Positions 1 through 33,753 of a stretch of DNA of 37,643 bases are shown piece by piece. The position numbers and the translations under genes were made by a program. This DNA comes from a virus. The stretch's first letter is position 1; the number at the start of each line of letters is the position of its first letter. Where the stretch lies: positions 1 through 37,643 of IMG/VR virus record IMGVR_UViG_3300020450_000003; one strand, 5' to 3'. A model generated the notes under the pieces. That model was given only the letters and a program-made list of their open reading frames with translations. It did no database searches and was not told the DNA's origin.

Positions 1-77
1 ACGTTGAAAGCGGCGTGCTGACGCAAAATCACGCATTGACTGGGAATGACGTTACAACAGGAAACCCAACAGTCGAT
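1..77. repeat. Contig-end overlap, left copy
   Basis: These 77 bases are identical to 37567-37643. The repeat lies inside one open reading frame that stays in frame across the junction. This is the signature of a circular or circularly permuted molecule assembled by a de Bruijn graph method. The length of 77 equals a common default k-mer, so the repeat is more likely an assembly overlap than a biological terminal repeat. Confidence 0.95.
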
Positions 78-2775: not shown

Positions 2776-3646
2776 ACCATACGCTAGAGGTTGGGCAATA
2801 TACAGACAAGACAAGATGCCGAAATTGCGTAAAGCTGTTGATGTTAAAAAATTTGAAGACGAATTATTTAAAACAGAAATAAAAGCAATTCACATTGATA
2901 TTGTAAATCGGCAAAATTTAGATGCGTATGCTGACACGTTTGTTTATAGCGAAGGAACACCAAATTTTCATCATTTCTCTTGCTCAAAAAAAGCTGAATA
3001 TGTTCACATTTCGGGGCAAGGTTGGTTTGATTATCTTGGGACAAACAACCCATATAAAAACGAATATAAAAATTACGATATAGACAGCACAATTCTTGAT
3101 TTTTATTTGTCGTTAGAAAATAACAAATTTGGGATTAAAAGAAACAAACCCAATTGGGCAAATTTACCAGACAATTTTGATTTGTTTGTAATGCAACAAC
3201 CAACAACAAAAGATAGAAATGAAACGCAAGATGTTTTGCGATATGCAAAAAATACAAAACGTCATGTTATATTTTCAGCTCACCCATCATCAAATGACGC
3301 GCATGATTGGGAGATTTTTAAAAAAAGCGGTTTGGTTTGTGAATATACACATTTTGTTGATGACATAAACACGAATGATTTGGCAAAAAAATGTCAACGT
3401 TTGATCAGTGCTTGTAGCGGCGTAAATTTTTTGGGTTTGTTACATAATAAACCAACATTCAGCTATAGAAATATGCCGTGGAGCGAAATATCTAGCGTTA
3501 TTAAAGACGCGACAAACGAAATTGACGATAAAACGCCAGAAAAACAAGATTTGCTTCGTTTCTTGTCTTGGTATTATAACGAAATAACAATTGACATACA
3601 AAGCAAAGATTGGCGCAACAAATTGTGGAAGCAAATCAATACATAA
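2768..3646 (+). CDS. Capsule-synthesis/Kdo-transferase-like protein
   Basis: This 292-aa protein (start ATG at 2768; a TTG at 2756 is in frame but less likely) resembles the capsule polysaccharide synthesis family seen in KpsC/KpsS-like Kdo transferases. The features I see are DLFVMQQPTTKDR, the HVIFSAHPSSND segment (compare the family's HP-containing nucleotide-sugar loop), and ISACSGVNFLGLLHNKPTFSY, which matches the SS/ALxxGKPV-type end of the second Rossmann domain. It overlaps the oxygenase upstream by 8 nt, and the radical SAM gene follows closely. A glycosyltransferase-like role on a virion or host surface polymer is inferred. The family assignment is by motif and is uncertain. Confidence 0.45.
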   Translation: MFRPYARGWAIYRQDKMPKLRKAVDVKKFEDELFKTEIKAIHIDIVNRQNLDAYADTFVYSEGTPNFHHFSCSKKAEYVHISGQGWFDYLGTNNPYKNEYKNYDIDSTILDFYLSLENNKFGIKRNKPNWANLPDNFDLFVMQQPTTKDRNETQDVLRYAKNTKRHVIFSAHPSSNDAHDWEIFKKSGLVCEYTHFVDDINTNDLAKKCQRLISACSGVNFLGLLHNKPTFSYRNMPWSEISSVIKDATNEIDDKTPEKQDLLRFLSWYYNEITIDIQSKDWRNKLWKQINT

Positions 3647-3663
3647 AAGACGATAGAAACGAT

Positions 3664-4482
3664 ATGTTTGACGTTATGGAGCGGCGGATTTCTATGGATA
3701 ATCCATTTTCGTCATTATTGTCTATTGATTTGATGGTAACCGAATTATGCAATCTTTCTTGTGAATTTTGCCCACGTTCAAAGGGTTATCCCAATCAAAA
3801 TTTGCATATGGATTTATCCGTAATAAGAAAAATTGCAAATGAATTGGCAAAATTAGAATATAAAAACAGGATTGTGTTTTGTGGGTTTGGCGAACCGTTA
3901 TTATACAATTATTTGTTTGAAGCGATAGAAATATTGCGACAAAAATTGCCGTGGCAACAAAACATTCACATTGTAACGAACGGAGACAGATTAACACGAT
4001 CCAAAATGCAAGATTTGTACGAAATTGGTTTAAATAAAATATTTGTTTCTATGTACGAACAACAAATTGAACGTTTTAATGAAATTTTTAAATCCGTGGA
4101 TAAATCCAAATACCTTTTGCAACATTATTATTTAGATAAAAAAGATAATTATGGGTTTGTTCATCTTAGCAACAGAAGCGGTTATAATTTTGTCACAAAT
4201 GAAAGAATTATGGGTTGTAATATGCCGTTTTATGCAATGAATATACATTATGATGGAAATGTGTTATTATGCTGTCATGATTGGAAAAAATCGGTTTCAA
4301 TGGGTAATGTCATGAAACAAAATTTGAAAGATATTTGGTTAAATAGCACAATATTCAATGAATATAGAAATAAATTGCAAAAAGAACGAAACATAAATCC
4401 ATGTAAAAATTGCAACATTGATGGCAAATTTTACGGCAATAAATCAAGAAACACTTTATTATCGAGGTCGCAATGCCAATAG
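3664..4482 (+). CDS. Radical SAM / SPASM-domain enzyme
   Basis: This protein of about 272 aa has the radical SAM cluster motif C29xxxC33xxC36 (TELCNLSCEFCPRSKG). It is followed by the SAM-binding GFGEPLL segment and by HIVTNGD. The C-terminal part has the SPASM pattern: GCNMPFYAMNIHYDGNVLLCCHDW, a GN-containing turn, DIWLNS, then NPCKNCNIDG, giving Cys ligands for auxiliary clusters. SPASM proteins mature peptides or act on sugars, so the substrate is open. Starts at 3664, 3676 and 3694 are all possible; 3694 has GGAGCGG upstream. It overlaps the nozzle gene by 10 nt. No obvious precursor peptide gene with a Cys-rich core lies adjacent. Confidence 0.8.
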   Translation: MFDVMERRISMDNPFSSLLSIDLMVTELCNLSCEFCPRSKGYPNQNLHMDLSVIRKIANELAKLEYKNRIVFCGFGEPLLYNYLFEAIEILRQKLPWQQNIHIVTNGDRLTRSKMQDLYEIGLNKIFVSMYEQQIERFNEIFKSVDKSKYLLQHYYLDKKDNYGFVHLSNRSGYNFVTNERIMGCNMPFYAMNIHYDGNVLLCCHDWKKSVSMGNVMKQNLKDIWLNSTIFNEYRNKLQKERNINPCKNCNIDGKFYGNKSRNTLLSRSQCQ

Positions 4483-20196: not shown

Positions 20197-20604
20197 TTAT
20201 AGATTTAATTCATGGATTGCTGTGTCTAAAGATTCCAACCATTTCGGACTATCTGTCCATTGATTGCTTCGCATTTTGGGAATTGTTATTGCGTAATGCC
20301 CGAAGTGCAAACCTTCCTCATACAAATCATAACGTTTTGTAATATGACCGTCTTTGTCTAATTCGTCATGATTGTATCCGTATGTGGTTCGATGATTCCA
20401 ACCAAAATCGTCATGTTTGGAAGCATCAAATAAACTGACCGTTATTTCGGCATCTCCGTCACGAATGTTGTAAATACCTTTGGTACGTTCAACAAGGTTA
20501 ATGATCGCTTTTTTAACGGTGTCATGTTTTGTTTCGAAACAAGCCCAAACGGAACCTGTTCCGATCAAAATCAATCCAAAGTATAGTGGTGTTTCAGATT
20601 TCAT
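20197..20604 (-). CDS. Hypothetical early protein with N-terminal hydrophobic segment
   Basis: This 135-aa protein begins MKSETPLYFGLILIGTGSVWACF, which could be a membrane anchor or signal. A soluble domain follows with KKAIINLVERTKGIYNI, DAEITVSLFDASKHDDF and a His/Tyr-rich middle. AGAGGTTCAAG directly precedes the ATG. It is the first gene after a strong sigma70-like promoter with the shared 21-bp box. I recognise no family. Being first in an early operon suggests a host-takeover or regulatory role, without direct evidence. Confidence 0.6.
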   Translation of the reverse strand: MKSETPLYFGLILIGTGSVWACFETKHDTVKKAIINLVERTKGIYNIRDGDAEITVSLFDASKHDDFGWNHRTTYGYNHDELDKDGHITKRYDLYEEGLHFGHYAITIPKMRSNQWTDSPKWLESLDTAIHELNL

Positions 20605-20635
20605 CTTGAACCTCTTTTTTTATTAAATTGTCAAA

Positions 20636-20664
20636 TAACGTGCTAACGTCATGTCAGCACGTTA
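20636..20664. promoter_or_regulatory. 9-bp perfect inverted repeat in early leader
   Basis: TAACGTGCT (20636-20644) and AGCACGTTA (20656-20664) are perfect inverted copies 11 nt apart. They lie just downstream of the minus -10 box (20673-20678), near the expected transcription start. The repeat could be a repressor operator or a 5' leader stem-loop. TAACGT-like half sites recur in the -10 or spacer regions of two other minus promoters. Confidence 0.55.
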
Positions 20665-20672
20665 ACAATTAC

Positions 20673-20716
20673 AGTATAACATATTAAAAATCGTTTGTCA
20701 ACAGTTAGTTTACAAA
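20673..20716 (-). promoter_or_regulatory. Early promoter with shared 21-bp box (operon 20604-19742)
   Basis: On the minus strand TTGACA (20696-20701) and TATACT (20673-20678) are separated by 17 bp, a near-perfect sigma70 promoter. The -35 is the end of the shared box TTTGTAAAC-N5-GTTGACA (20696-20716). The divergent promoter at 20731 carries the same box, so the pair may share one regulator. Confidence 0.8.
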
Positions 20717-20730
20717 TAAAAAATTGATTA

Positions 20731-20773
20731 ATTGTAAATAAAGTGTTGACATTACTGCCAAACCTGTTATATT
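20731..20773 (+). promoter_or_regulatory. Early promoter with shared 21-bp box (DUF932 gene)
   Basis: TTGACA (20746-20751) and TATATT (20768-20773) are spaced 16 bp apart. The 21-bp box at 20731-20751 (ATTGTAAAT-N5-GTTGACA) has the same internal spacing as four minus-strand boxes. The leader ends in ATGGAGGTTC before the ATG at 20808. Confidence 0.8.
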
Positions 20774-20807
20774 AAGAATATCAAACATAGAAAAATGGAG
20801 GTTCTAA

Positions 20808-21650
20808 ATGCTTGATATAACTGAAAAAAATCGTGATTGGGTTTTCCCAGTTGAAGAACGTCAATTTGTCCCAATGGGTATGACTGAGCCAGTTCAAGGC
20901 TGGAAAACACTTGTCAGAACCGATGGCGAAAAAGACGAAGTCTTGCACGTTTGTCGTGATACTTACACAATGTTAAGTCATGATGATGTTGTTAATTCAA
21001 CATATGACGCGGTTAAAAAAGCGAACATATCAAAAGATTTTGAATTTGATGTTCGTTGCGTAAATTCTGGCAGACAATTAGAGGTCGAGGTTTTGTTTAA
21101 CGACCTTATAATTGAACCCAAAAAGAATGATCATATTAAATATAGAATTAGAGCATTTAATTCACTTGATGGGTCATTTGCGTATCAAACAACGGCTGAT
21201 GCAATGCGTTTGTTTTGCATGAACGGTTGCACCACACCCGATGCAATTTCAAAAGTATGGGCAAGACATACATCGCAAATTTCTACCGAAGGCGGTTCTG
21301 CCAAGATTGTCAGAGGTTTAGAAAATTTTCACAATCAAAAAGACGTTTATCAAGAATGGGCAAAACATAAAATTGCGCGTGATGATGCAGAACGTTTTAT
21401 TAAAAAATGTGTTGTTGCAAGAAGTTCCAAAACATCTGAAGAAAAACACAATCAGAAACAATTGGAAACTTTAATGGGTCAATTAGATACAGAATTTAAA
21501 ACTTTGAATAAAACAAAGTGGGCATTGTATAATTGTTTGACACATTGGGCAACGCATACAAAAGAAACTGCGTCACCAATTCGTACAACCCGACATAGAG
21601 AAAACGTTATTGCGAAAGCAATGAAAACAGATATGTGGGAAACAATCTAA
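20808..21650 (+). CDS. DUF932 family protein
   Basis: This 280-aa protein has the DUF932 pattern (phage/plasmid-like protein family): a start with the query-like WVFPVEERQFVPMGM...VRTDGEKDEVLHVCRDTYTMLSHDDVVN, then NSLDGSFAYQTTADAMRLFCMNGC and a C-terminal region of charged helices. The family is common in phages and plasmids, and its molecular role is not established. It is the first gene behind a strong early promoter with GGAGG 6 nt before the ATG. A terminator directly after it makes it a mono-cistronic unit, so it is probably made early and in quantity. Confidence 0.75.
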   Translation: MLDITEKNRDWVFPVEERQFVPMGMTEPVQGWKTLVRTDGEKDEVLHVCRDTYTMLSHDDVVNSTYDAVKKANISKDFEFDVRCVNSGRQLEVEVLFNDLIIEPKKNDHIKYRIRAFNSLDGSFAYQTTADAMRLFCMNGCTTPDAISKVWARHTSQISTEGGSAKIVRGLENFHNQKDVYQEWAKHKIARDDAERFIKKCVVARSSKTSEEKHNQKQLETLMGQLDTEFKTLNKTKWALYNCLTHWATHTKETASPIRTTRHRENVIAKAMKTDMWETI

Positions 21651-21652
21651 CA

Positions 21653-21684
21653 AAAGGGGGATAAAACCCCCTTTATTTTTTTTT
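21653..21684 (+). terminator. Rho-independent terminator after DUF932 gene
   Basis: AAAGGGGG (21653-21660), a 6-nt loop and CCCCCTTT (21667-21674) are followed by A and a run of nine T residues. It separates the DUF932 gene from the small regulatory genes downstream. No clear promoter lies in the 20 bases before the next gene, so some read-through is expected. Confidence 0.88.
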
Positions 21685-21705
21685 GGTCTATAATGGAGGA
21701 AATCA

Positions 21706-22074
21706 ATGGACGGAAAAACAAGACAAGATGAAATTGATGAACAAGCGTCACAATTCAGCCAACAACACCCAGAGGTTTCTAGGTTGTTTGTAAAATTTAC
21801 AAATGAAATTATATCACGCGGTTTTGCAAATTATTCCGCGCAAGCAATTTTTGAACGTATTCGATGGGAAACGGATCAAGCAGATGTGGATGGTAAATCA
21901 TCTTTTAAATTAAATAATAATTATGTTCCTTGGTTTGCAAGAAAATTTATGGAAAGATACCCAGAACATGATGGTTTCTTTAGAACACGAACACGCATAA
22001 GTTCGAAACAAAGCGCAACAAATTTGCCAGAACTTACACCAGATTATTTTGAATGGAATGTTAATGGACAATAA
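21706..22074 (+). CDS. Conserved phage protein of unknown function
   Basis: This 122-aa protein contains FVKFTNEIISRGFANYSAQAIFERIRWET, then FKLNNNYVPWFARKFMERYPEHDGFFRTR. The order (RGF..YSA..I..RIRWET, then N-NYV...ARKFM..P.H..FF..R) belongs to a small conserved phage and prophage family whose function I do not know. TGGAGG lies 8 nt upstream of the ATG. Its stop overlaps the start of the Fis-type protein. It could bind nucleic acid, given its Arg/Aromatic content, but no motif proves this. Confidence 0.6.
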   Translation: MDGKTRQDEIDEQASQFSQQHPEVSRLFVKFTNEIISRGFANYSAQAIFERIRWETDQADVDGKSSFKLNNNYVPWFARKFMERYPEHDGFFRTRTRISSKQSATNLPELTPDYFEWNVNGQ

Positions 22075-22261
22075 AGAAATAATGCAATGGAAAGATTTGC
22101 TGTCAGAACATAAAGACGCAAAGAAACATTTATTAAACAATGCGTTGCAAGAATGTGGCGGCTCTAAATCAAGAGCCGCTCGTAAAATCGGTATATCTCG
22201 GCAACAATATCATAGATTGTGCATTACCCATCAGGTGAAATATGACAATAAAATTCATTGA
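22064..22261 (+). CDS. Fis-type helix-turn-helix DNA-binding protein
   Basis: This 65-aa protein starts within the previous gene; ATG at 22064 is preferred over 22049 because it shortens the overlap. Its C-terminal half (NALQECGGSKSRAARKIGISRQQYHRLC) matches the Fis/NtrC-type HTH: an L..C.GN-like turn, SRAARKIGIS as helix-turn and QQYHRL as the recognition helix. It lacks a separate dimerisation domain beyond a short N-terminal helix. It is a candidate for the regulator of early or late promoters. Its target cannot be read from the sequence. Confidence 0.7.
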   Translation: MDNKEIMQWKDLLSEHKDAKKHLLNNALQECGGSKSRAARKIGISRQQYHRLCITHQVKYDNKIH

Positions 22262-22535
22262 AACGTGGGATGAAATGTTAGCCAGACACCATCAGGAAAA
22301 AATAAATAGTTTGGTGATATTATCACAAAACGGTTATACTCAAACTGAAGCCGCGCATATTCTTGGCATGACGAAAACACATTTAAACATTTTTGTTAAA
22401 AGAAATAAAATTGTTTGGAAGGTGAAACGACAAGGACACAGGGATGGGCAACGAAATTTTAAGCGACGAACAAAAAGCAATAAGGCGTTTTTTGTTGTCG
22501 GAAATAGATCGCACCGAACAACGGCGGCGATGTAA
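22242..22535 (+). CDS. Helix-turn-helix protein
   Basis: This 97-aa protein has VILSQNGYTQTEAAHILGMTKTHLNIFVKRNKI (about residues 25-57), a clear HTH of the YTQxEAAxxLGxTxxHL type. The last 40 residues are very basic and overlap the next gene in another frame, so that tail may be poorly constrained. Its start overlaps the end of the Fis-type gene by 20 nt. Two unlike HTH genes side by side suggest a small regulatory switch. The target sites are unknown; the 21-bp promoter boxes are one candidate. Confidence 0.65.
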   Translation: MTIKFIETWDEMLARHHQEKINSLVILSQNGYTQTEAAHILGMTKTHLNIFVKRNKIVWKVKRQGHRDGQRNFKRRTKSNKAFFVVGNRSHRTTAAM

Positions 22536-22644
22536 AGACAAACCAAACACAGCAAACACCGATTATTTTTATGCAAAACAACGGTTAAATGATTTTTATT
22601 CAGAATTAGAAAAAGATGGAATTTGTATATGTCGCGGAAATTAG
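22444..22644 (+). CDS. Hypothetical small charged protein
   Basis: This 66-aa protein is rich in Lys, Asp, Glu and Arg (LSDEQKAIRRFLLSEIDRTEQRRRCKDKPN...YFYAKQRLNDFYSELEKDG) and looks helical and soluble. It begins 92 nt before the stop of the HTH gene, in another frame. AAGGACACAGGG precedes the ATG. No family is recognised. Its composition is more protein-like than the overlapping tail of the HTH gene, so I think it is real. Confidence 0.5.
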   Translation: MGNEILSDEQKAIRRFLLSEIDRTEQRRRCKDKPNTANTDYFYAKQRLNDFYSELEKDGICICRGN

Positions 22645-22928
22645 AATTAGATTTGAGTGATTTGTCTGATTTGGAAGATATGGAAGACACTTCTAAACCT
22701 CCCGAGGCAATGGTATTTATGGGTGAAGAATGTAGCAATGAAGAATTGGCAATGCTTTTGCCAGAAATAATGAACGATTATAAATTTAATCCTATCGTTA
22801 TTTCTCCAGTTTTTTATTCCAAGAAAAATGGCGATGGTGGGAGAATTGTTATTGTTTTTTTTGAAGACACAACGTCCGTTTATGATATTGATGTTTACAT
22901 AAAAGAAAAGAAAAAGGCGATGCATTGA
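22629..22928 (+). CDS. Hypothetical acidic protein
   Basis: This 99-aa protein uses ATG 22629; a TTG at 22623 is in frame. It begins with an acidic repeat (LELDLSDLSDLEDMEDTSKP) and continues with a compact alpha/beta-looking region (EELAMLLPEIMNDYKF...GGRIVIVFFEDTTSVYDIDVYIKEKKK). The acidic N-terminus might mimic DNA or serve as an interaction tail. It sits just before the RusA gene with a near-overlap. I do not recognise it. Confidence 0.5.
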   Translation: MSRKLELDLSDLSDLEDMEDTSKPPEAMVFMGEECSNEELAMLLPEIMNDYKFNPIVISPVFYSKKNGDGGRIVIVFFEDTTSVYDIDVYIKEKKKAMH

Positions 22929-22930
22929 TA

Positions 22931-23362
22931 ATGCTAAGACAAATAAATTTTAAGGTTAGCGGCAAGCCCATCGGAAAAGGTAGGCCAAGATTTACAAAAT
23001 CTGGTCATGTTTATACGCCCAATGAAACAAAACAATATGAAACAAGAATTAAAAATGCCGCATGGGCGGCAATGAAACGTGAAAAATTAAACCCAACGGA
23101 TAGAAGGGTTACAATTACAGCAAGCGCATATTTTGAAGTTCCGAAATCTTACAACAAACAAAAACGGATTGAATGTCAATGTGGGATACATATTCCCAAA
23201 CGCCCAGATATTGATAATATTGCAAAATCAATATTGGATGGGTGCAACGGAATCGCGTTTAAAGATGATTGTCAGGTTTGGCATCTGAGCGTTAATAAAC
23301 GTTTTTGTGATGTTCTTGATGTTCCACATATCAATGTAAAAATTCAATGGGACGAACAATAA
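22931..23362 (+). CDS. rusA: RusA-like Holliday junction resolvase
   Basis: This 143-aa protein cuts four-way DNA junctions during recombination and packaging-linked debranching. The N-terminal GKPIGKGRPRFTKSGHVYTPNETKQYE is the family signature. RPDIDNIAKSILDGCNGIAFKDDCQVWHL carries the catalytic Asp cluster and the DN..K...D block, with the DD pair near the end. The length fits the family. ATG 22931 is chosen over TTG 22925. Its stop overlaps the convergent HNH gene by 19 nt. It pairs functionally with the ERF, SSB and HNH genes on the opposite strand. Confidence 0.85.
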   Translation: MLRQINFKVSGKPIGKGRPRFTKSGHVYTPNETKQYETRIKNAAWAAMKREKLNPTDRRVTITASAYFEVPKSYNKQKRIECQCGIHIPKRPDIDNIAKSILDGCNGIAFKDDCQVWHLSVNKRFCDVLDVPHINVKIQWDEQ

Positions 23363-23664
23363 TCATAATCGTTGCCGTAACAGTCCCGCCATTTGTTCGG
23401 TTCTTTATGTATCGCAATCTTTGATTGATCCCATAAACCTTGATGATGACCTTCACATAATGGAATCGCCATATTGTCAGCCGTTTTTTTTGTGCTGAAC
23501 CTGTCATGAATTACATGATGCGCTGTTGTCGGTGAATTTTGTTTTTCGCCAAATTTTTGACAAACGCAACACGACATTTGTCTTATCTTATCAAGATATT
23601 TTGGGTTTTTTTTTGCTTTTTCTTTTTTGAGGCCAAGCGGTGGTTTGTTTGCCAAATTAGTCAT
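23344..23664 (-). CDS. HNH-type nuclease (Ref/DUF968-like)
   Basis: This 106-aa protein has a CCVCQ zinc-type pair, then TTAHHVIHDRFSTKKTADNMAIPLCEGHHQGLW, which is an HNH/beta-beta-alpha-metal pattern (HH...N...HH). The layout resembles DUF968 and the RecA-dependent Ref nuclease group that replaces NinG-like functions in phages. A Lys-rich N-terminus may contact DNA. It is the last gene of the minus recombination operon, starting in an ATGA overlap with the gene before it. A DNA end-processing or junction role is inferred. Confidence 0.7.
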   Translation of the reverse strand: MTNLANKPPLGLKKEKAKKNPKYLDKIRQMSCCVCQKFGEKQNSPTTAHHVIHDRFSTKKTADNMAIPLCEGHHQGLWDQSKIAIHKEPNKWRDCYGNDYDYCSSH

Positions 23665-24068
23665 AAAGGATCATAACCAATCGCTTCAGATAATTTTCCC
23701 ATTGCTTGATCAAAAAATTTTGAAAATTCTTGTTGATCCATTTTTGTAAAAGCAATGCTGTCAGGAATATAATAAATTTGATTATTATGTTTGTTTACAA
23801 CCGTTCTATAATAACCGCAAAGCATTTTTAAATCATCATGCAAATGTTGCGATGTAGGCCATTTGTCTGTTGTTTTTACAACATCATTTAGAACGGCAAA
23901 ATATTTTTTGTGATGTTGTTCCGAACGTTTGGACGTAGGTTTTAAATCAAACAATTGATCGTTCGGCATTTCTTCAATTGTTTCAGCATCATATCGCGTG
24001 ACAGGGTGTAAAACCCCATCACGCTTAAAGACTTGCAATGTCGGCTTGTCAAAATGGGATTTCATCAT
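23661..24068 (-). CDS. DUF1367-like recombination-operon protein
   Basis: This 135-aa protein is read from ATG 24068 (or 24065); longer in-frame starts would run deep into the SSB gene. The region KPTSKRSEQHHKKYFAVLNDVVKTTDKWPTSQHLHDDLKMLCGYY, then YYIPDSIAFTKMDQQEFSKFFDQAM matches the DUF1367 phage family, often found beside Nin-region genes. The IPDSI-F and EF-FF blocks are characteristic. It lies between SSB and the HNH nuclease, so a recombination or nucleic-acid role is likely. No catalytic residues are known to me. Confidence 0.65.
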   Translation of the reverse strand: MMKSHFDKPTLQVFKRDGVLHPVTRYDAETIEEMPNDQLFDLKPTSKRSEQHHKKYFAVLNDVVKTTDKWPTSQHLHDDLKMLCGYYRTVVNKHNNQIYYIPDSIAFTKMDQQEFSKFFDQAMGKLSEAIGYDPL

Positions 24069-24417
24069 CAAAATCTTTTTTTGCTTCGCCGCCCGTATCC
24101 TCGCTTTCATCTTGTTCGTCTTGGGAAGAGGTTCGTTTCCCGCCACACAATTCAAGCGTGTTGACATTACAAGTCAATTTTGTGTTGCCATTATAGGTGT
24201 CTGTTCCAAATTCACCTTGAACAAAAACCTTTTGTCCTTTTTTGAGGGAAGGAAACAAGGCGGTTGCTAATTTCCCCCATAAAGAACAATCCCAATATGA
24301 AACTTCTTTTGTTCGTCTATTGGTAACGGCAACAGCAAAATTAGCAACATCTGTTCCGTTAAATTCACCCATTCTGCAATCAGCAGTTAAATTTCCTAAA
24401 ATATTAATTTGTTGCAT
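24049..24417 (-). CDS. ssb: Single-stranded DNA-binding protein
   Basis: This 122-aa protein has an OB-fold SSB pattern: MQQINILGNLTADCRMGEFNGTDVANFAVAVTNRRTKEVSYWDCSLWGKLA, then LKKGQKVFVQGEFGTDTYNGN. After a Gln/Asp/Glu linker it ends in DDEIPF, the acidic tip that binds partner proteins. ATG 24417 is the family start; an earlier in-frame ATG at 24495 lies in the ERF gene. It probably coats ssDNA for the ERF annealase made from the gene upstream. It overlaps both neighbours. Confidence 0.88.
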   Translation of the reverse strand: MQQINILGNLTADCRMGEFNGTDVANFAVAVTNRRTKEVSYWDCSLWGKLATALFPSLKKGQKVFVQGEFGTDTYNGNTKLTCNVNTLELCGGKRTSSQDEQDESEDTGGEAKKDFDDEIPF

Positions 24418-25051
24418 TTTCTTGCTCACGTTTTGCCAATTTGTGATTTGAAAATGCTTCCGCCACAGCGTCTCCAATTCGTTTTGAAAATTCATTTAAT
24501 TGCTTAACCAATACTGTTCCTCTGTTAAAACCTTCCTCAAAATTTTCTGGCGTTGCGCCATCTATCAACCAATTTTCTGTTTTAACAGCACGTTCAAGCA
24601 AATTTTGTTGAGCCAATGTAATGCCTTTTTTGGGCGTTATGGATTCATATCGTTTCACTTCCCTTGCAACAGGATTTAATGCTTGTTCGCCATCATCATC
24701 TTTGTTGCCAGATATAACACCACCTAATTGTGACAATCCATAGCGTCTTGCATATGTTATGGCACTACCGAGCGATTGCATATCATTTGGTTTATAAAGT
24801 AAACGAACGGACGTTTCCCACGTTTTACCCGATGAATGTTCAAAAACGGTTTTTAGAAAATCACCTTGTTCGGTCGCAAATTGAACATGATTGATAACAA
24901 AATTACGCGGTTGAAATGCTTCTTTAACAACACGAACAACCTCATTTAAATCGGCATAATCATTATTTACAAAACCTGTGGCATTTTTTATTGCCAACGC
25001 TAGATCGCTTTGTGCGTCTATGTAATCCTTTATAGCTGAATTATTACTCAT
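24404..25051 (-). CDS. erf: ERF-family single-strand annealing protein
   Basis: This 215-aa protein has the ERF core (about 30-130): YADLNEVVRVVKEAF, then HVQFATEQGDFLKTVFEHSSGKTWETS, and QSLGSAITYARRYGLSQLGGVISGNKDDDGE. The SAITYARRY and DDDG elements are the family signature. It anneals homologous single strands during phage recombination and concatemer formation. The C-terminal part is helical and charged. The start overlaps the Gp157 stop (TAATG), and the stop overlaps the SSB start. Confidence 0.88.
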   Translation of the reverse strand: MSNNSAIKDYIDAQSDLALAIKNATGFVNNDYADLNEVVRVVKEAFQPRNFVINHVQFATEQGDFLKTVFEHSSGKTWETSVRLLYKPNDMQSLGSAITYARRYGLSQLGGVISGNKDDDGEQALNPVAREVKRYESITPKKGITLAQQNLLERAVKTENWLIDGATPENFEEGFNRGTVLVKQLNEFSKRIGDAVAEAFSNHKLAKREQENATN

Positions 25052-25536
25052 TATTTCATCCTTATTGATATAGTTGGATCGCCATTATGTAGTCTTGCAC
25101 CTTCGACATGGTGACCTTGATTTAATTTTTCTTTTATTGCGTTCTTAATTGGTGCTTTTTCTACCTTCACAAATTCGTCAGGTAACTGGTCTATATTATC
25201 AACAATTAAACTTTTTACACCTTCTTTTCGGCTTATTGTGCCGAATGAATGTGGTATGTTTTTTTGATTTGTTGAATATAAAATTTTCTGCAAAGATTGT
25301 TTAATTTTGTCTTTTTTATTTTCAAATCTATCTTTACGTTCTTTGAACGTTTTCATCACTTCGTTCAAAGCATTTATGTCAGCGTTGGCAATTTGATATT
25401 CTTTTAACAATTCGCCAACAACATACATAACGTCCGTTTCACCGTCTAACGTATCCCAGAAACATTGATTATCGTCAGAATATTCCCGTAATTGATCGGC
25501 AACAAACGTTAATACACCTGTATCAATCCTTTGCAT
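25051..25536 (-). CDS. Siphovirus Gp157-like protein
   Basis: This 161-aa protein has the Gp157 pattern: an acidic N-terminal helix region, a Lys-rich coiled coil (KTFKERKDRFENKKDKIKQSLQKIL), then IPHSFGTISRKEGVKSLIVDNIDQLPDEFVKVEKAPIKNAIKEKL and a final GARLHNGDPTISIR. The family is typically encoded next to phage ERF/RecT and SSB genes. ATG 25536 with GCGAGGCG upstream is preferred over the longer frame. The exact function is not established; a recombination accessory role is inferred from the constant neighbourhood. Confidence 0.8.
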   Translation of the reverse strand: MQRIDTGVLTFVADQLREYSDDNQCFWDTLDGETDVMYVVGELLKEYQIANADINALNEVMKTFKERKDRFENKKDKIKQSLQKILYSTNQKNIPHSFGTISRKEGVKSLIVDNIDQLPDEFVKVEKAPIKNAIKEKLNQGHHVEGARLHNGDPTISIRMK

Positions 25537-25774
25537 TGTCGCCTCGCAAATTTTGTTGTTCGGCATAGATATCACAAGCTAATGTAACCGCTTTTGAAAT
25601 AACGGTATCAGCATTTAATGGAAACATTTGTGCTTGTAATTGTTGCGCTGAAATTTGCCCCGCTTCGCATTGCATACGAATATCGGTATTATAATTTAGG
25701 ATAGCATCTTGTATTTTTTCCCGTATAAAAACAGGCGATGGATGATCCTGAATGTAAGGATTTTTTTTCGTCAT
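25523..25774 (-). CDS. Hypothetical first gene of the recombination operon
   Basis: This 83-aa protein starts at ATG 25774, marked by TTGGAGGTTCAT; an in-frame extension to 25828 would include the promoter. It contains IQDHPSPVFIREKIQDAILNYNTDIRMQCEAGQISAQQLQAQMFPLNADTVISKA, mostly helical. No domain is recognised. It overlaps the Gp157 gene by 14 nt, so all genes to 23344 are likely one transcript. Confidence 0.6.
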   Translation of the reverse strand: MTKKNPYIQDHPSPVFIREKIQDAILNYNTDIRMQCEAGQISAQQLQAQMFPLNADTVISKAVTLACDIYAEQQNLRGDNAKD

Positions 25775-25796
25775 ATGAACCTCCAATTGTTCTAAC

Positions 25797-25840
25797 ACAT
25801 TAATTTTAGCCGTTTTTTTTGTCAACAAAAATTTTACAAA
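25797..25840 (-). promoter_or_regulatory. Early promoter with shared 21-bp box (recombination operon)
   Basis: On the minus strand TTGACA (25820-25825) forms the end of the shared box TTTGTAAAA-N4-TGTTGACA (25820-25840). At 17-bp spacing the -10 would be TAATGT (25797-25802), which is weak, so an activator acting at the box is conceivable. The start codon follows at 25774. Confidence 0.65.
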
Positions 25841-25849
25841 TAATTTATC

Positions 25850-25877
25850 TTGTTTTAAATTGGAATGTGCTTATAAA
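25850..25877 (+). promoter_or_regulatory. Candidate promoter for replication genes
   Basis: TTGTTT (25850-25855) and TATAAA (25872-25877) are separated by 16 bp on the + strand. The promoter lies in the divergent region opposite the recombination operon promoter. The transcript would start just before the leader hairpin at 25884. Confidence 0.5.
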
Positions 25878-25883
25878 GAAAAG

Positions 25884-25907
25884 GAGCGACCTCGTTGAAG
25901 GCCGCTC
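25884..25907 (+). promoter_or_regulatory. Leader hairpin upstream of replication genes
   Basis: GAGCG (25884-25888) pairs with CGCTC (25903-25907). CCT (25890-25892) pairs with AGG (25899-25901), with one mismatch between the two stems. No T tract follows, so it is not a normal terminator. It would sit at the 5' end of the replication transcript, where it could stabilise the mRNA or control its translation. Confidence 0.5.
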
Positions 25908-25947
25908 ACTGGAGAAATACAACACAACTAGAATGGAGGTTCCGTAT

Positions 25948-25992
25948 ATGTTATATTTTTTCTTTAGCACGCAAATCATAAATGGGCAATAA
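25948..25992 (+). CDS. 14-aa leader peptide before the initiator gene
   Basis: The ATG at 25948 follows ATGGAGGTTC, the strongest ribosome site in this region, and encodes only 14 residues (MLYFFFSTQIINGQ) before a TAA at 25992. The initiator ATG follows 4 nt later and has no good Shine-Dalgarno of its own. The arrangement suggests translational coupling or reinitiation. The peptide itself need not be functional. Confidence 0.5.
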   Translation: MLYFFFSTQIINGQ

Positions 25993-25995
25993 AAA

Positions 25996-26652
25996 ATGTC
26001 CCATTACATGACAGCGTTAGCAATGAAACAAAAAGATTTAAAGCCATCAACAAAAATTGTTTTGTATTGGATAGCCGATCATTACAATGATGATACAAAA
26101 GCTTGTTTTCCCAGTCAGACAAGATTGGCGCAATTATGCCAAATGACACGAACGAGCGTAAATAATCATATTTTATTGTTAAGAGAAAAAAACATTATTA
26201 CGACAACGCAACGACACAGGCCAGATGGCGGCAAATCAACGTTGGGTTATGAATTACATTTGCAAGATGATGTAAAAGATTTAAACAACCCATGTAAAAA
26301 TAATTTACAAGGGCATGACAAAAAAATTGATAACAATAACCTTGTAAATATTAACCATGTAAATTTAAAAAAAGATATAGATAGCTCGGTTTTGTTTGAT
26401 GAATTTTGGCAATTATACCCAAGAAAGATTGGCAAAGGCGCGGCAAGAACCAAATTTTTCTTAGCATTAAAAAAAGTTCCTTTTGACACAATCAAACAAG
26501 CGTTGCAAAATTATGTTGAAAAGATTGAAGGGAAAGACAAACAATTTATTCCCAATCCTTCAACTTGGTTACATCAAGAAAGATGGGACGATGAAATTGG
26601 ATTGTTGCCCGCAAGAACAACGACAGCATATTTGGAAGAATTATTAAAATGA
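25996..26652 (+). CDS. Lambda O-like replication initiator with winged helix
   Basis: This 218-aa protein has an N-terminal winged-helix domain: KPSTKIVLYWIADHYNDDTKACFPSQTRLAQLCQMTRTSVNNHILLLREKNII, typical of phage replisome organisers. A hydrophilic Asn/Lys linker of about 35 residues follows (about 92-128). The C-terminal domain (FDEFWQLYPRKIGKGAARTKFFLALKK...FIPNPSTWLHQERWDDE) is common in O-like initiators. The DNA encoding the linker carries four iteron-like repeats, as the lambda O gene carries its origin. It probably binds those repeats and recruits a loader or helicase. Confidence 0.75.
   Translation: MSHYMTALAMKQKDLKPSTKIVLYWIADHYNDDTKACFPSQTRLAQLCQMTRTSVNNHILLLREKNIITTTQRHRPDGGKSTLGYELHLQDDVKDLNNPCKNNLQGHDKKIDNNNLVNINHVNLKKDIDSSVLFDEFWQLYPRKIGKGAARTKFFLALKKVPFDTIKQALQNYVEKIEGKDKQFIPNPSTWLHQERWDDEIGLLPARTTTAYLEELLK
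26290..26365. other. Candidate replication origin: four iterons inside the initiator gene
   Basis: Four 11-bp elements with the core CC(A/T)TGTAAAW lie within 76 bp: 26290-26300 (+), 26302-26312 (minus), 26340-26350 (+) and 26355-26365 (+). They fall in the Asn/Lys linker of the initiator gene and are surrounded by very AT-rich DNA. The placement is like lambda ori inside O. Origin function is inferred; the repeats are short and the region is AT-rich, which raises the chance of coincidence. Confidence 0.5.
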
Positions 26653-27170
26653 ATTATGAAACGCGAAAAAGAATGGTTTCAAATTGGTTGTTTGATTTTC
26701 TAAAGAATTATGAAGTGCCGCCGCATTTAGATCAAGATGCAAGCAAAAAAGAATTGGTAAATATGGTTGAAGACATAAACAGCGAAATACCGTTGTTGAA
26801 AGAAAACAGTTTTAAATTGTTATTAGAGAATGTTGCCAAACATATCAGAAAAAATCAAACATCAAGACGATGGCCAACAATCGCATTTTTTATCAAAGCC
26901 GTAAAAGAACATAGGGAAAAAGCGATGAATGACATGGCAAAAGAAACATTGCCAAGCCCATCACAAAACGAAAAAATTGACCGCACGTTAATAATCAACG
27001 CAAAAAGAATAAAAGACGGTATTCCCGTTGACGAATATTATATTGTTGGAAACGGCAAAAAAAAATTATTGGAAGAAAAATTAATAACAGAACAGGATTT
27101 AAAAAAATACGATGGATTTAAAAGATTATTCTTTGATGAAAGTCAAAGATTTAAGGCCGTACAAAAATAA
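26649..27170 (+). CDS. Possible lambda P-like replication partner
   Basis: This 173-aa protein starts in an ATGA overlap with the initiator. It is helical and charged (MVEDINSEIPLLKENSFKLLLENVAKHIRKNQTSRRWPTIAFFIKAVKEH). The RRWPTIAFFIKA segment is a pattern found in P-like or loader-type phage proteins. The C-terminal half (KRIKDGIPVDEYYIVGNGKKKLLEEKLITEQDLKKY) has no motif I know. No Walker motif is present, so it is not a DnaC-type ATPase. The helicase-loading role is inferred from its position after an O-like gene. Confidence 0.5.
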   Translation: MNYETRKRMVSNWLFDFLKNYEVPPHLDQDASKKELVNMVEDINSEIPLLKENSFKLLLENVAKHIRKNQTSRRWPTIAFFIKAVKEHREKAMNDMAKETLPSPSQNEKIDRTLIINAKRIKDGIPVDEYYIVGNGKKKLLEEKLITEQDLKKYDGFKRLFFDESQRFKAVQK

Positions 27171-27654
27171 TAGCCGCATACACAAAGAACCACAAATTCA
27201 ACAAATAGCAGATTCCATTGAACAATGGGGTTTTACAATGCCAATTTTGATTGATGATGAAAAAACAATTTTGGCAGGACATGGTCGTTTGATGGCGGCA
27301 CAAAGATTAAAAATGCCAGAAGTACCTGTTTTAATTGCAAAAAATTGGAGTGAAGAACAAAAAAAAGCATATGTAATTGCTGATAATAAATTGACGGAAA
27401 ATTCGTTTTTCGACCCAGATATGTTGAAAGTCGAAATAAACAATTTGACAGACAAAAATTTTGACATTGATCTATTGGGTTTTTCTGATCAAGAATTGGC
27501 TAAATTATTCGATGAATTAAATTTGGATGATATAAAAGAAATAGACGAAAATTTTGCACAACATGAATTGTTATTAACGTTTGATACTGAAGAACAATTG
27601 GCTGAATATTATGAAAAAGCTGAACAGGAAGGAATACAATGCAAAATTTTGTAG
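27112..27654 (+). CDS. ParB/sulfiredoxin-fold domain protein
   Basis: This 180-aa protein has the ParB N-terminal domain: LMKVKDLRPYKNNSRIHKEPQIQQIADSIEQWGFTMPILIDDEKTILAGHGRLMAAQRLKMPEVPVLI, with the GHGR box at about residue 63-66. YVIADNKLTENSFFDPDML is the typical second block of phage ParB domains that are often fused to DNA methyltransferases. Here no methyltransferase follows in the same protein. It overlaps the upstream gene by 59 nt and the ABC/GNAT gene by 16 nt. Such domains bind or cut nucleotides or DNA; joint action with the next gene is inferred. Confidence 0.75.
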   Translation: MDLKDYSLMKVKDLRPYKNNSRIHKEPQIQQIADSIEQWGFTMPILIDDEKTILAGHGRLMAAQRLKMPEVPVLIAKNWSEEQKKAYVIADNKLTENSFFDPDMLKVEINNLTDKNFDIDLLGFSDQELAKLFDELNLDDIKEIDENFAQHELLLTFDTEEQLAEYYEKAEQEGIQCKIL

Positions 27655-28745
27655 TCAATTTAAAATCAGACCCGCCAAAAGGTTTTCGTAGCATCAAAGC
27701 ATCGCAAAGCGTTGATTTGCCGATTGATCAAAAATTGGTGCATAATTTATCTGTAAAAGCTGATATACATACAGATTTTAATGTTGGTTTAATAATTGGT
27801 GCTTCGGGTTCTGGCAAAACAACGTTAGCAAAAGAAATGTTTGGACCCGCTTGTTTTGATGAATTGTTAGATTTAAAAAAACCAGTGATTGAACAATTCA
27901 GAAAATCAATGTCATACGAGGATTGTGTAGCGGCACTCACAGGAATTGGGTTGTCACAAGTTCCATGTTGGGTAAAACCCGCGGGTGCATTGTCAAACGG
28001 TCAAAAAGCAAGAGCCGAAGCGGCGTTGCAAATGTGTTCGTTACGACCATTCGTTGTGATTGATGAATTTACATCGGTTGTTGATCGCAACGTTGCAAAA
28101 GTAATGGCGCATTGTGTTCAAAGATTTGCGCGAAAATTTGAAAAAAAGATTGTTCTTGTATCTTGTCATTATGATGTTTTCGAATGGTTAAATCCAGATT
28201 GGGTTATTGATTGCAACGATGAAAGTTATCTTGATCGGAGGTTGGAAAGGCGCGAATACAAAAGACAAGAACAAATGCAATTCGAAATTGCCAAATGTCA
28301 CCGAAATACATGGCGAAATTTTAGCAAATATCACTATCTAAGCGATAGATTGGCGGGTGGCCACATTGAATGTTTTGGAATCTATTTAGATAATAAACAA
28401 GTTGGGTTTCAATGTTTTGCAAATTATGTACCGCATAGAAAAGGCACAAAAAAGATAATGCATAGCAATCGAACCGTTGTTCATCCAGATTATGTTGGGT
28501 TTGGGTTGGGAATGAAGGTGATTGATCTAACTTCACAATATATGCATGAACAAGGATTTCTTGTCCAAGCAAAATTTTCTGCATTGCCTGTCTATTACGC
28601 AATGAAGAAACATAAAAATTGGAGATTAACAGCCGTGTCGAATAATACGCAAGAAAGCCAATTTATTCCAGGCGGCAATAGCAAACGCAAATCAGGTTTC
28701 CGCCAAAAGACGAAAACCTTTTCATTTAAATTTATACCGTCTTAA
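27639..28745 (+). CDS. ABC-type ATPase fused to GNAT acyltransferase (COG2401-like)
   Basis: This is a 368-aa fusion. The N-terminal ATPase has Walker A GASGSGKTT (54-62), a variant signature LSNGQ (118-122), Walker B FVVIDEFTS (138-146, E143 catalytic) and an H-loop His (H177). The helical insert between Walker A and the signature is short, as in non-transport ABC proteins. The C-terminal GNAT domain has HPDYVGFGLGMKVI (282-295) for acyl-CoA binding. No membrane segment is present. The fusion matches COG2401. Together with the ParB gene, it is a candidate DNA-modification enzyme of the Mom-like kind, by inference. GGAAGGAATACA precedes the ATG. Confidence 0.8.
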   Translation: MQNFVVNLKSDPPKGFRSIKASQSVDLPIDQKLVHNLSVKADIHTDFNVGLIIGASGSGKTTLAKEMFGPACFDELLDLKKPVIEQFRKSMSYEDCVAALTGIGLSQVPCWVKPAGALSNGQKARAEAALQMCSLRPFVVIDEFTSVVDRNVAKVMAHCVQRFARKFEKKIVLVSCHYDVFEWLNPDWVIDCNDESYLDRRLERREYKRQEQMQFEIAKCHRNTWRNFSKYHYLSDRLAGGHIECFGIYLDNKQVGFQCFANYVPHRKGTKKIMHSNRTVVHPDYVGFGLGMKVIDLTSQYMHEQGFLVQAKFSALPVYYAMKKHKNWRLTAVSNNTQESQFIPGGNSKRKSGFRQKTKTFSFKFIPS

Positions 28746-28972
28746 AGATTGCAAAGATGCGCGGTCATATCGTCATTGGATACCGCATAGACCATTGTTT
28801 TTCCGTCAATCGCACCGTTTGCGTGATTAAGAATAAAATGTAAAACGTCATTTTCCTCTGCACAAATTTGTTTGATACGATTGCGGCCATAGCCACGAAC
28901 ACAAGTAAAATGTTTGCGATTGTCATACACGCTTTTTTCATATTCTGATAAATTGTCATATATCTTTTTCAT
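28742..28972 (-). CDS. Hypothetical small early protein
   Basis: This 76-aa protein starts at ATG 28972 behind ATGGAGGTTCAC; the in-frame extension to 29005 lies upstream of that site. It contains YDNLSEYEKSVYDNRKHFTCVRGYGRNRIKQICAEENDVLHFILNHAN, soluble with two Cys and a basic patch. Its own promoter with the 21-bp box lies 50 bp upstream. Its stop overlaps the end of the convergent ABC/GNAT gene by 3 nt. The function is unknown. Confidence 0.6.
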   Translation of the reverse strand: MKKIYDNLSEYEKSVYDNRKHFTCVRGYGRNRIKQICAEENDVLHFILNHANGAIDGKTMVYAVSNDDMTAHLCNL

Positions 28973-28995
28973 GTGAACCTCCATTACATAAAAAA

Positions 28996-29039
28996 ACGTT
29001 AACACAATTTTTACATCATGTCAACGTTTTGTTTACAAA
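28996..29039 (-). promoter_or_regulatory. Early promoter with shared 21-bp box (gene 28972)
   Basis: On the minus strand the box TTTGTAAAC-N5-GTTGACA occupies 29019-29039, with TTGACA at 29019-29024. At 17-bp spacing the -10 is TAACGT (28996-29001), weak and similar to TAATGT at the recombination operon promoter. The shared weak -10 type suggests dependence on a bound activator. Confidence 0.65.
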
Positions 29040-29043
29040 TATA

Positions 29044-29280
29044 TTAATATTCTTTTTGTGATCCGTCTGCTTTCCCGCAAGAATATCCCGCATGATAATC
29101 GTCAATTTGTTCCTCTGTCATTGCGTCTTGTGTTATCGTCAACGATGATACGGTGGAATCAGAATACATATGTGGATCACGTGGGCGGTGATACCAAAAA
29201 TCAGCCATCCCACGATCAAATGCCCCGCCATGTCTTGCGTCATAACATTTGCCATTCCAATATTTTAAACGTTTTCGCAT
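29044..29280 (-). CDS. Hypothetical small early protein
   Basis: This 78-aa protein contains MRKRLKYWNGKCYDARHGGAFDRGMADFWYHRPRDPHMYS, then EEQIDDYHAGYSCGKADGSQKEY. The GGAFDRG-AD-YY(x)R and DDYHAGY blocks look like a conserved small phage protein pattern. CAGGGTG lies before the ATG. It overlaps the preceding gene by 1 nt and shares its promoter. It is soluble, with two Cys and four His. A metal-binding role is possible but unproven. Confidence 0.6.
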   Translation of the reverse strand: MRKRLKYWNGKCYDARHGGAFDRGMADFWYHRPRDPHMYSDSTVSSLTITQDAMTEEQIDDYHAGYSCGKADGSQKEY

Positions 29281-29558
29281 TATGAACACCCTGCAAATAA
29301 AGGTGACATTGATGAAAAGATTTTATTGTAAGATACGATTTCTGTTAAATGATCCTCACAAAAACATTCGATATCATATTCATCATCTAATTCGTTATAT
29401 AATGAACGACAACGTTCCATTGCGGCAAGTAAATCGCCCTCTTGTCCGTTTGCAATATGTGCATCGGTAAGAAAATTAAGAACATTCTCGGCGGCTTCGT
29501 CAAATGACATATTTTGCAATTCGTCATTTACGGTCAAAAATTCTGGTATAATTAACAT
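29280..29558 (-). CDS. Hypothetical acidic early protein
   Basis: This 92-aa protein uses ATG 29558, one base after the previous stop; the in-frame extension to 29606 would lie inside the gene before. It is acidic and helical (SFDEAAENVLNFLTDAHIANGQEGDLLAAMERCRSLYNELDDEYDIECFCEDHLTEIV). It has no recognised domain. It is the second gene of a three-gene minus operon of small proteins. Confidence 0.6.
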   Translation of the reverse strand: MLIIPEFLTVNDELQNMSFDEAAENVLNFLTDAHIANGQEGDLLAAMERCRSLYNELDDEYDIECFCEDHLTEIVSYNKIFSSMSPLFAGCS

Positions 29559-29559
29559 C

Positions 29560-29724
29560 TTAAAATTCCTTGCTTTCGTCCCAACGATCAATAAAATTAA
29601 GAACAAACGATTGTTGTTCTACAGACAAATCTTCCAACAATGCACCTTGGGCATCAATTGTTTTGTCTTCAATGTTAATTTGATTGTTTAGCCAATCATT
29701 CCATTCATCTATTAATTTATTCAT
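29560..29724 (-). CDS. 54-aa acidic early protein
   Basis: This short gene starts at ATG 29724, directly behind AGAGGTTCAAA, and encodes 54 aa (MNKLIDEWNDWLNN...; ends FIDRWDESKEF). It is acidic, Trp-rich and probably helical. It is the first gene after a strong early promoter with the shared 21-bp box. I do not recognise it. Confidence 0.6.
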   Translation of the reverse strand: MNKLIDEWNDWLNNQINIEDKTIDAQGALLEDLSVEQQSFVLNFIDRWDESKEF

Positions 29725-29749
29725 TTTGAACCTCTTTGTTTATACATAT

Positions 29750-29793
29750 AATATAGGTTATTTCACGTTAAATGTCAACACTTTGTTTACAAA
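29750..29793 (-). promoter_or_regulatory. Early promoter with shared 21-bp box (operon 29724-29044)
   Basis: On the minus strand the box TTTGTAAAC-N5-GTTGACA occupies 29773-29793. TTGACA (29773-29778) and TATATT (29750-29755) are separated by 17 bp. The spacer contains TTTAACGTG, related to the TAACGTG half site of the inverted repeat at 20636-20664. Confidence 0.8.
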
Positions 29794-29825
29794 TAATTAC
29801 ATTAATTGATCATTCAAAATTTATC

Positions 29826-29856
29826 TTGTAAATTGATGGGATACATTACATATAAT
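29826..29856 (+). promoter_or_regulatory. Candidate late promoter for terminase operon
   Basis: TTGTAA (29826-29831) and TATAAT (29851-29856) are 19 bp apart, long for sigma70, but the -10 is perfect. The start codon at 29863 is only 7 nt after the -10, so the mRNA would be nearly leaderless. TCTTGTAAATT overlapping the -35 resembles the origin iterons. Confidence 0.45.
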
Positions 29857-33135: not shown

Positions 33136-33753
33136 ATGGCATTATCTAATTATACAGAATTACAAGCACACATTGCTGACACATTAAATCGTGATGATTT
33201 AAGCACCGTTATACCCGAATTTATTGTTATGGCTGAAAGCCGATTGAATAGAGAAATCAGACATTGGCGCATGGAAAAAAGAGCAACAGCATCATTCGAT
33301 GCACAATATACGGCGTTGCCAACAGATTTTTTACAACCAATAAGATTTGTCGTTGAAACAACACCGATTTGCACATTGGAACAACAGAACGCAAAAGGCA
33401 TTGCTGATTTAAGAGAGGTTAGCAATGCGACAGGCAAGCCAACATCTTATTGCATTTTAGATGGTTCAATAGAAGTGCATCCAACACCTGATACGGCATA
33501 TACAGTTGAAATGACGTATTATGAAAAGATAGACTCTTTAAACAGCGGCAACCCAACAAATTGGTTATTAGAAAATTATCCTGACGCTTATTTATATGGT
33601 TCATTGTTGCACAGCGCGCCATATTTAGCGGAGTCGGAAAGATTGGCAGAATACGGAGCGTTGTATCAAAGCTCAATTGATGGTATTAACACAGACAGCG
33701 ACCAATCAAGAACAGCATCGAGTGGTAGGCGTATTATTATAAGGAGTTATTAA
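33136..33753 (+). CDS. Head-to-tail adaptor (SU10-adaptor-like)
   Basis: This 205-aa protein begins NYTELQAHIADTLNRDDLSTVIPEFIVMAESRLNREIRHWRME, the characteristic helical start of SU10-type adaptors. A beta-containing middle follows (YTALPTDFLQPIRFVV) and then LLENYPDAYLYGSLLHSAPYLAESERLAEY. Adaptor rings join the portal to the nozzle in podoviruses. This agrees with the SU10-type capsid and portal found elsewhere in the genome. GTTAATC precedes the ATG, and the previous stop is 2 nt away. Confidence 0.8.
   Translation: MALSNYTELQAHIADTLNRDDLSTVIPEFIVMAESRLNREIRHWRMEKRATASFDAQYTALPTDFLQPIRFVVETTPICTLEQQNAKGIADLREVSNATGKPTSYCILDGSIEVHPTPDTAYTVEMTYYEKIDSLNSGNPTNWLLENYPDAYLYGSLLHSAPYLAESERLAEYGALYQSSIDGINTDSDQSRTASSGRRIIIRSY

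Follow-up and report, generated by a model that had tools for sequence, protein, structure and literature searches.

The 37.6-kb virus record IMGVR_UViG_3300020450_000003 of IMG/VR, analysed here over its whole length of 37,643 nucleotides (the window), contains an early block (20197-29724) encoding RusA-, NinB-, SSB-, Erf-, Gam-, Rep- and ParB-like proteins. The late genes occupy the stretch from TerS (29806) and TerL to the end of the record and, at its start, positions 1 to about 20165. The early block holds five copies of a 21-bp box of the form TTTGTAAAC-N5-GTTGACA, in which the -35 element of a promoter is embedded; each box lies shortly upstream of a start codon (48-94 bp, counted from where the box ends to the last base of the start codon). 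Collectively, the data presented here indicate that the early regulon marked by these boxes is real and conserved, and that a small phage protein with a Pfam HTH_8 domain is a good candidate for its repressor. An earlier note on this DNA had listed the five boxes, and their coordinates and strands were all confirmed in the window:

20696..20716, minus strand: box 1, exact match; -35 TTGACA at 20696-20701, -10 TATACT at 20673-20678 (N17), extended (TGT)
20731..20751, plus strand: box 2, ATTGTAAAT-AAAGT-GTTGACA, two mismatches; -35 at 20746-20751, -10 TATATT at 20768-20773 (N16), extended (TGT)
25820..25840, minus strand: box 3, TTTGTAAAA-TTTTT-GTTGACA, one mismatch; -10 TAATGT at 25797-25802 (N17)
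29019..29039, minus strand: box 4, exact match; -10 TAACGT at 28996-29001 (N17), with TGn
29773..29793, minus strand: box 5, exact match; -10 TATATT at 29750-29755 (N17), divergent from terS

A 19-bp dyad that contains the -35 element

A search of the window allowing up to three mismatches returned 9 matches, against 1.14 expected and a maximum of 4 in 100 shuffles. Two of the nine were the same dyads read in reverse, that is, the same sites on the other strand, which exposes the underlying structure: what is conserved is an imperfect dyad of 19 bp, TGTAAAY-N5-GTTGACA, with the half-site TGTMAAY and with the -35 hexamer in its right arm. Within the window this dyad is concentrated at a gap of 5 (3 perfect and 2 one-mismatch matches), with no perfect and altogether two one-mismatch matches at other spacings. 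The left part TTTGTAAACAAA, previously described as a nearly palindromic unit of its own, is not the conserved unit because the N5 interior varies among the five boxes. More columns are explained by the dyad than by the TTTGTAAACAAA palindrome or by a direct repeat (TTTGT at 11 bp), and both of these readings were set aside.

A weight matrix was trained on 26 non-redundant sites, all from other phages. It ranked the five boxes of the window 1 to 5 (scores of 31.3, 28.6, 22.8, 20.2 and 19.1; next match 14.3); its core columns were fixed by the search pattern, and the independent evidence comes only from the flanking and interior columns and from this recovery of the window's boxes. The best score per window in random windows (n = 60) had a mean of 7.7 and a maximum of 21.7. 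In the matrix consensus, TTGTAAATAAWTTGTTGACA, the dyad is longer, reaching TGTMAAYAA-W-TTRTTKACA. At 33317-33337, within a late gene, there is a sixth match; it is weaker and probably due to chance.

Judged by their sequence, the promoters are of the host sigma70 type, with -35 and -10 elements spaced by 16-18 bp and a start codon downstream. Boxes 1 and 2 are divergent, the centres of their dyads being 37 bp apart. Both in the window and in related phages, the -35 is a near-invariant consensus lying wholly inside the dyad. Two -10s had been described as weak (TAAYGT); TAATGT and TAACGT are indeed present, but the supposedly weak TAACGT is preceded by TG and is an extended -10. Extended -10s were found in 3/5 window promoters, and an extended -10 at 16 bp is kept in many relatives. 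The promoter of box 4 also carries a second site:

28997..29015, minus strand: second operator-like dyad TGTAAAA-ATTGT-GTTAACG, 22 bp downstream of box 4, overlapping the spacer and the -10

The modest -10 of the 29019 promoter is probably a consequence of operator overlap, because that promoter carries this second dyad. Second dyads 20-22 bp downstream (two helical turns), over the spacer and the -10, were found in 7/38 non-redundant promoters, two of the seven being from close relatives of each other, versus 0.16 expected; a count of seven was reached in 0/2000 simulations. In one conserved promoter shared by two relatives (G025 and G043), TTTACA replaces TTGACA, so that the dyad is completed and the -35 weakened.

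The box and the HTH_8 protein in related phages

In relatives reached via TerL and Rep, whose Rep proteins are 42-68% identical to that of the window, the box precedes homologous genes, namely DUF932 and the genes located ahead of TerS and of Gam. A box homologous to box 3 is likewise conserved. Scanning all IMG/VR contigs for TTTGTAAAYNNNNTGTTGACA at the DNA level alone revealed more phages with two to five boxes in their early regions, the start codon (with its ribosome-binding site) lying mostly 46-62 bp downstream. The box-bearing clade consists of uncultured, mostly marine phages. Viral-contig searches with DUF932 and with a second helix-turn-helix (HTH) protein of the window, described below, returned no relatives; theirs were reached through Rep. 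A search of box-less sister phages for a repeated promoter box with a consensus -35 found none, and the cultured phages Venkman, P26218 and HTVC106P, which are related by TerL, have neither the box nor HTH_8. The earlier note had proposed a phage-specific early regulon and had advised looking for the box in related phages. Its proposal is well supported: the box stands before early genes only in the window, recurs throughout the clade of relatives, and is present in close relatives with the same gene order. In three box-bearing phages (L126, L129 and L154, also G027, G028 and G037) the boxes occur in two blocks more than 10 kb apart.

The regulator had been sought among two HTH proteins encoded downstream of box 2. 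The features of this region are:

22058..22261, plus strand: candidate repressor, a 67-aa stand-alone HTH_8 (Fis/NtrC-type) DNA-binding protein
22242..22535, plus strand: second HTH protein, a distant paralogue of HTH_8, whose presence does not track the box
21653..21674, plus strand: terminator-like hairpin between the box 2 gene and the HTH_8 gene

The 22058-22261 protein scored 33.8 bits with the Pfam HTH_8 profile (cut-off 22). Its structural model comprises three helices (pLDDT, the predicted local distance difference test, 83.6) in a Fis/NtrC fold with a long helix ahead of the HTH. The top 24 entries returned by VIA-align were all Fis or NtrC-type, the best being NtrC4 and Fis with a modest Z of 7.8; the domain is small. 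The protein consists of the DNA-binding domain, with no further domain, and the RQQ of its recognition helix is kept throughout.

Among the records of the TerL family, HTH_8 was found above the Pfam cut-off in 7/7 box-bearing records covering its region and in 0/12 box-less records, 8 of these 12 being shown to span RusA to Rep; G008, which has the box, ends inside the HTH_8 interval and was kept out of the 7/7 count. Similarly, HTH_8 was present in 6/6 records of at least 20 kb with at least two boxes found by the DNA pattern alone, and in 0/7 long records with one strong box, which is probably a chance match. The profile search also returned two dozen PhoH-like false positives (EQKDAKKHILxN), which were discarded, and the profiles of the two HTH proteins ran together on iteration and were separated by hand. 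The second HTH protein is absent from box-bearing G006, G007, G025 and G043 and present in box-less L029. The earlier suggestion thus stood for one of its two candidates, HTH_8 being restricted to box-bearing phages, and failed for the 22242-22535 protein by the same comparison. In the nine records compared, a same-strand box precedes the HTH_8 gene by 0.6-1.2 kb; a position downstream of a box promoter suggests that the gene may be autoregulated.

A proposed early repressor and its alternatives

We consider it probable that the five boxes are operators of one phage-encoded, autoregulated Fis-type repressor, located inside early promoters of the host sigma70 type. In this scheme, whose binding, dimerisation, repression and timing are predicted from sequence, the early promoters would be fired by host RNA polymerase on phage entry, owing to their consensus -35 and extended or near-consensus -10s, and the small stand-alone HTH_8 protein (22058-22261) would be among the early products. 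An HTH_8 dimer would then bind the 19-bp dyad; with the right half-site being the -35 hexamer, binding would block sigma region 4 and leave the early promoters closed. HTH_8 would shut its own promoter too, directly or by way of read-through, and the early regulon would be a self-limiting pulse, over as late expression starts. At some promoters closure may be made tighter by a further dyad that covers the -10, two helical turns downstream. The -35 inside the dyad, the tandem dyads and the TTTACA variant of G025 and G043 fit occlusion by a repressor.

Several observations weigh against this scheme. A distinct TerS family is distributed nearly like the box. The average -10 information in relatives is low. 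Between box 2 and the HTH_8 gene stands the terminator-like hairpin at 21653-21674, and expression of HTH_8 from box 2 would therefore need read-through or another promoter. Finally, box-bearing phages form a single clade in the RusA and NinB trees, and less firmly in the Rep tree (81/88); the box and HTH_8 arose once, and their association therefore counts as one evolutionary event.

The earlier note had read the weak -10s as a sign of activation. A phage protein placed beside sigma region 4 could act as a class II activator of early or delayed-early promoters with poor -10s, and two features are in agreement with such a role: the site is centred at about -39, close to the -41.5 position used by class II activators, and the -10 consensus of many promoters is weak. 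Class II-type activated promoters usually have poor -35s, whereas the dyad holds an entire -35 of near-invariant consensus. The -10 is covered where dyads are tandem, HTH_8 has no domain besides the DNA-binding one, several -10s, poor ones among them, are extended (TGnTA) or match the consensus at 5/6 positions, and the TAACGT of the 29019 promoter lies within the second dyad. These features fit repression better, and we regard class II activation as unlikely. Slightly less likely still is binding of the boxes by another factor, be it TerS, the second HTH protein or an exploited host regulator (e.g. TyrR/Fis-like). TerS has an HTH and one box lies beside terS, and the half-site TGTAAA is that of the TyrR box; TerS is nevertheless a late packaging gene, whereas the boxes occupy several early promoters and not a single pac-like site. 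The second HTH protein is missing in four box-bearing records and occurs in a box-less one, the spacing differs from that of the TyrR box (see below), and the box does not occur in relatives that otherwise have the same backbone but belong to the box-less group. We found very improbable the view that the left part is an AT-rich, UP-element-like feature of strong host promoters with no phage regulator involved. Strong promoters do typically have an AT-rich stretch, here TTATTTGTAAAT, upstream of their consensus -35, but the G and the TAAA are kept at an exact, fixed spacing over deep divergence, the left part forms a dyad with the -35 side, and a second, matching dyad follows downstream. Neither a fixed G nor a fixed 19-bp symmetry is known from UP elements.

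The proposed repressor can be compared with known systems. Aca autorepressors have operators within promoters, with an inverted repeat in the core promoter and sometimes a second one (PMC9410906). The phage system has in common with them a small stand-alone phage HTH protein, an inverted repeat inside a strong core promoter, sometimes with a second repeat, and, putatively, blocking of RNA polymerase and autoregulation. It differs in that one operator is common to several separate early promoters, in the operator sequence, and in that its protein is clearly Fis/NtrC-type HTH_8, whereas Aca1 falls below the HTH_8 cut-off. Homology to Aca1, the one Aca family compared, was rejected (only 10/28 residues, 21 bits). 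No anti-CRISPR was identified; the first genes have no known function, and no comparison with an anti-CRISPR library was made.

The TyrR box, TGTAAA-N6-TTTACA with a required G-N14-C (PMC4374768), shares the TGTAAA half-site, the dyad and the overlap with promoters. The spacing in the phage dyad is a fixed N7 (G-N15-C), which rules out membership of the TyrR regulon. The likeness of the phage site to sites of dimeric regulators with related domains, such as TyrR, favours the repressor scheme. The Fis/NtrC family comprises dimeric domains binding dyads with an AT-rich centre, and the phage protein matches it in profile and predicted fold. TyrR has sensor and AAA domains, which the HTH_8 protein lacks. 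Fis is a loose binder and NtrC a sigma54 activator, unlike the candidate phage repressor, a stand-alone 67-aa protein with a specific conserved 19-bp candidate site. The lambda Cro/CI-type and L5 stoperator systems also have several phage operators, some overlapping the -35, under one regulator; their DNA-binding family is a different one. No CI-like repressor, integrase or lysogeny module was recognised among the open reading frames (ORFs) scanned, which were part of those in the window, and a TerL search of 84,980 bacterial and archaeal genomes found no relative; for these reasons the system is probably not a lysogeny switch.

No description of an early phage repressor of the Fis type turned up in literature searches, and a self-limiting on/off switch of this kind looks new for these phages. 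If the proposal holds, the Fis/NtrC family would be put to an unusual use here, its stand-alone domain being dedicated to early repression in a phage. The boxes provide a testable regulator-operator pair for uncultured phages rich in early genes of unknown function and mark the genes expected to be expressed first, so that host-takeover and anti-defence candidates can be picked from metagenomes. More tentatively, the clade's whole early programme may be a regulon of -35-fused 19-bp operators, some tandem, under one small Fis-type autorepressor; as in acr-aca operons, the short first genes may be strong early genes for host takeover or anti-defence.

Genes behind the boxes and neighbouring features

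The genes behind the boxes are:

20197..20604, minus strand: behind box 1, 135 aa, no known function
20808..21650, plus strand: behind box 2, DUF932, 280 aa
25523..25774, minus strand: behind box 3, 83 aa, no known function, followed by Gam-, Erf-, SSB- and NinB-like genes
28742..28972, minus strand: behind box 4, 76 aa, no known function, conserved in relatives
29560..29724, minus strand: behind box 5, 54 aa, no known function, followed by 29280-29558 and 29044-29280

A strong hairpin (z -5.07) around AACGTGCTGACATGACGTTAGCACGTT is formed by the leader of the box 1 transcript (20610-20672, minus strand); it may control the gene at 20197-20604. Upstream of terS and outside the boxes, GATCATTCARAATTTAT at 29810-29826 recurs almost unchanged in L005 and L006 and in part in L007 and L009; it is a possible late promoter or packaging element. 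The protein encoded at 21706-22074 is 79-82% identical to homologues in box-less L011, L013 and L073, where the gene is flanked by NinB and SSB, on the other strand relative to RusA; it was probably transferred recently across the clade border. An ATPase-like protein encoded at 27639-28745, present among the compared relatives only in L011, gave weak PADLOC matches to mad3 (1e-10) and mad8 (4e-6). Among the tail genes lies a radical-SAM-like ORF (3610-4482).

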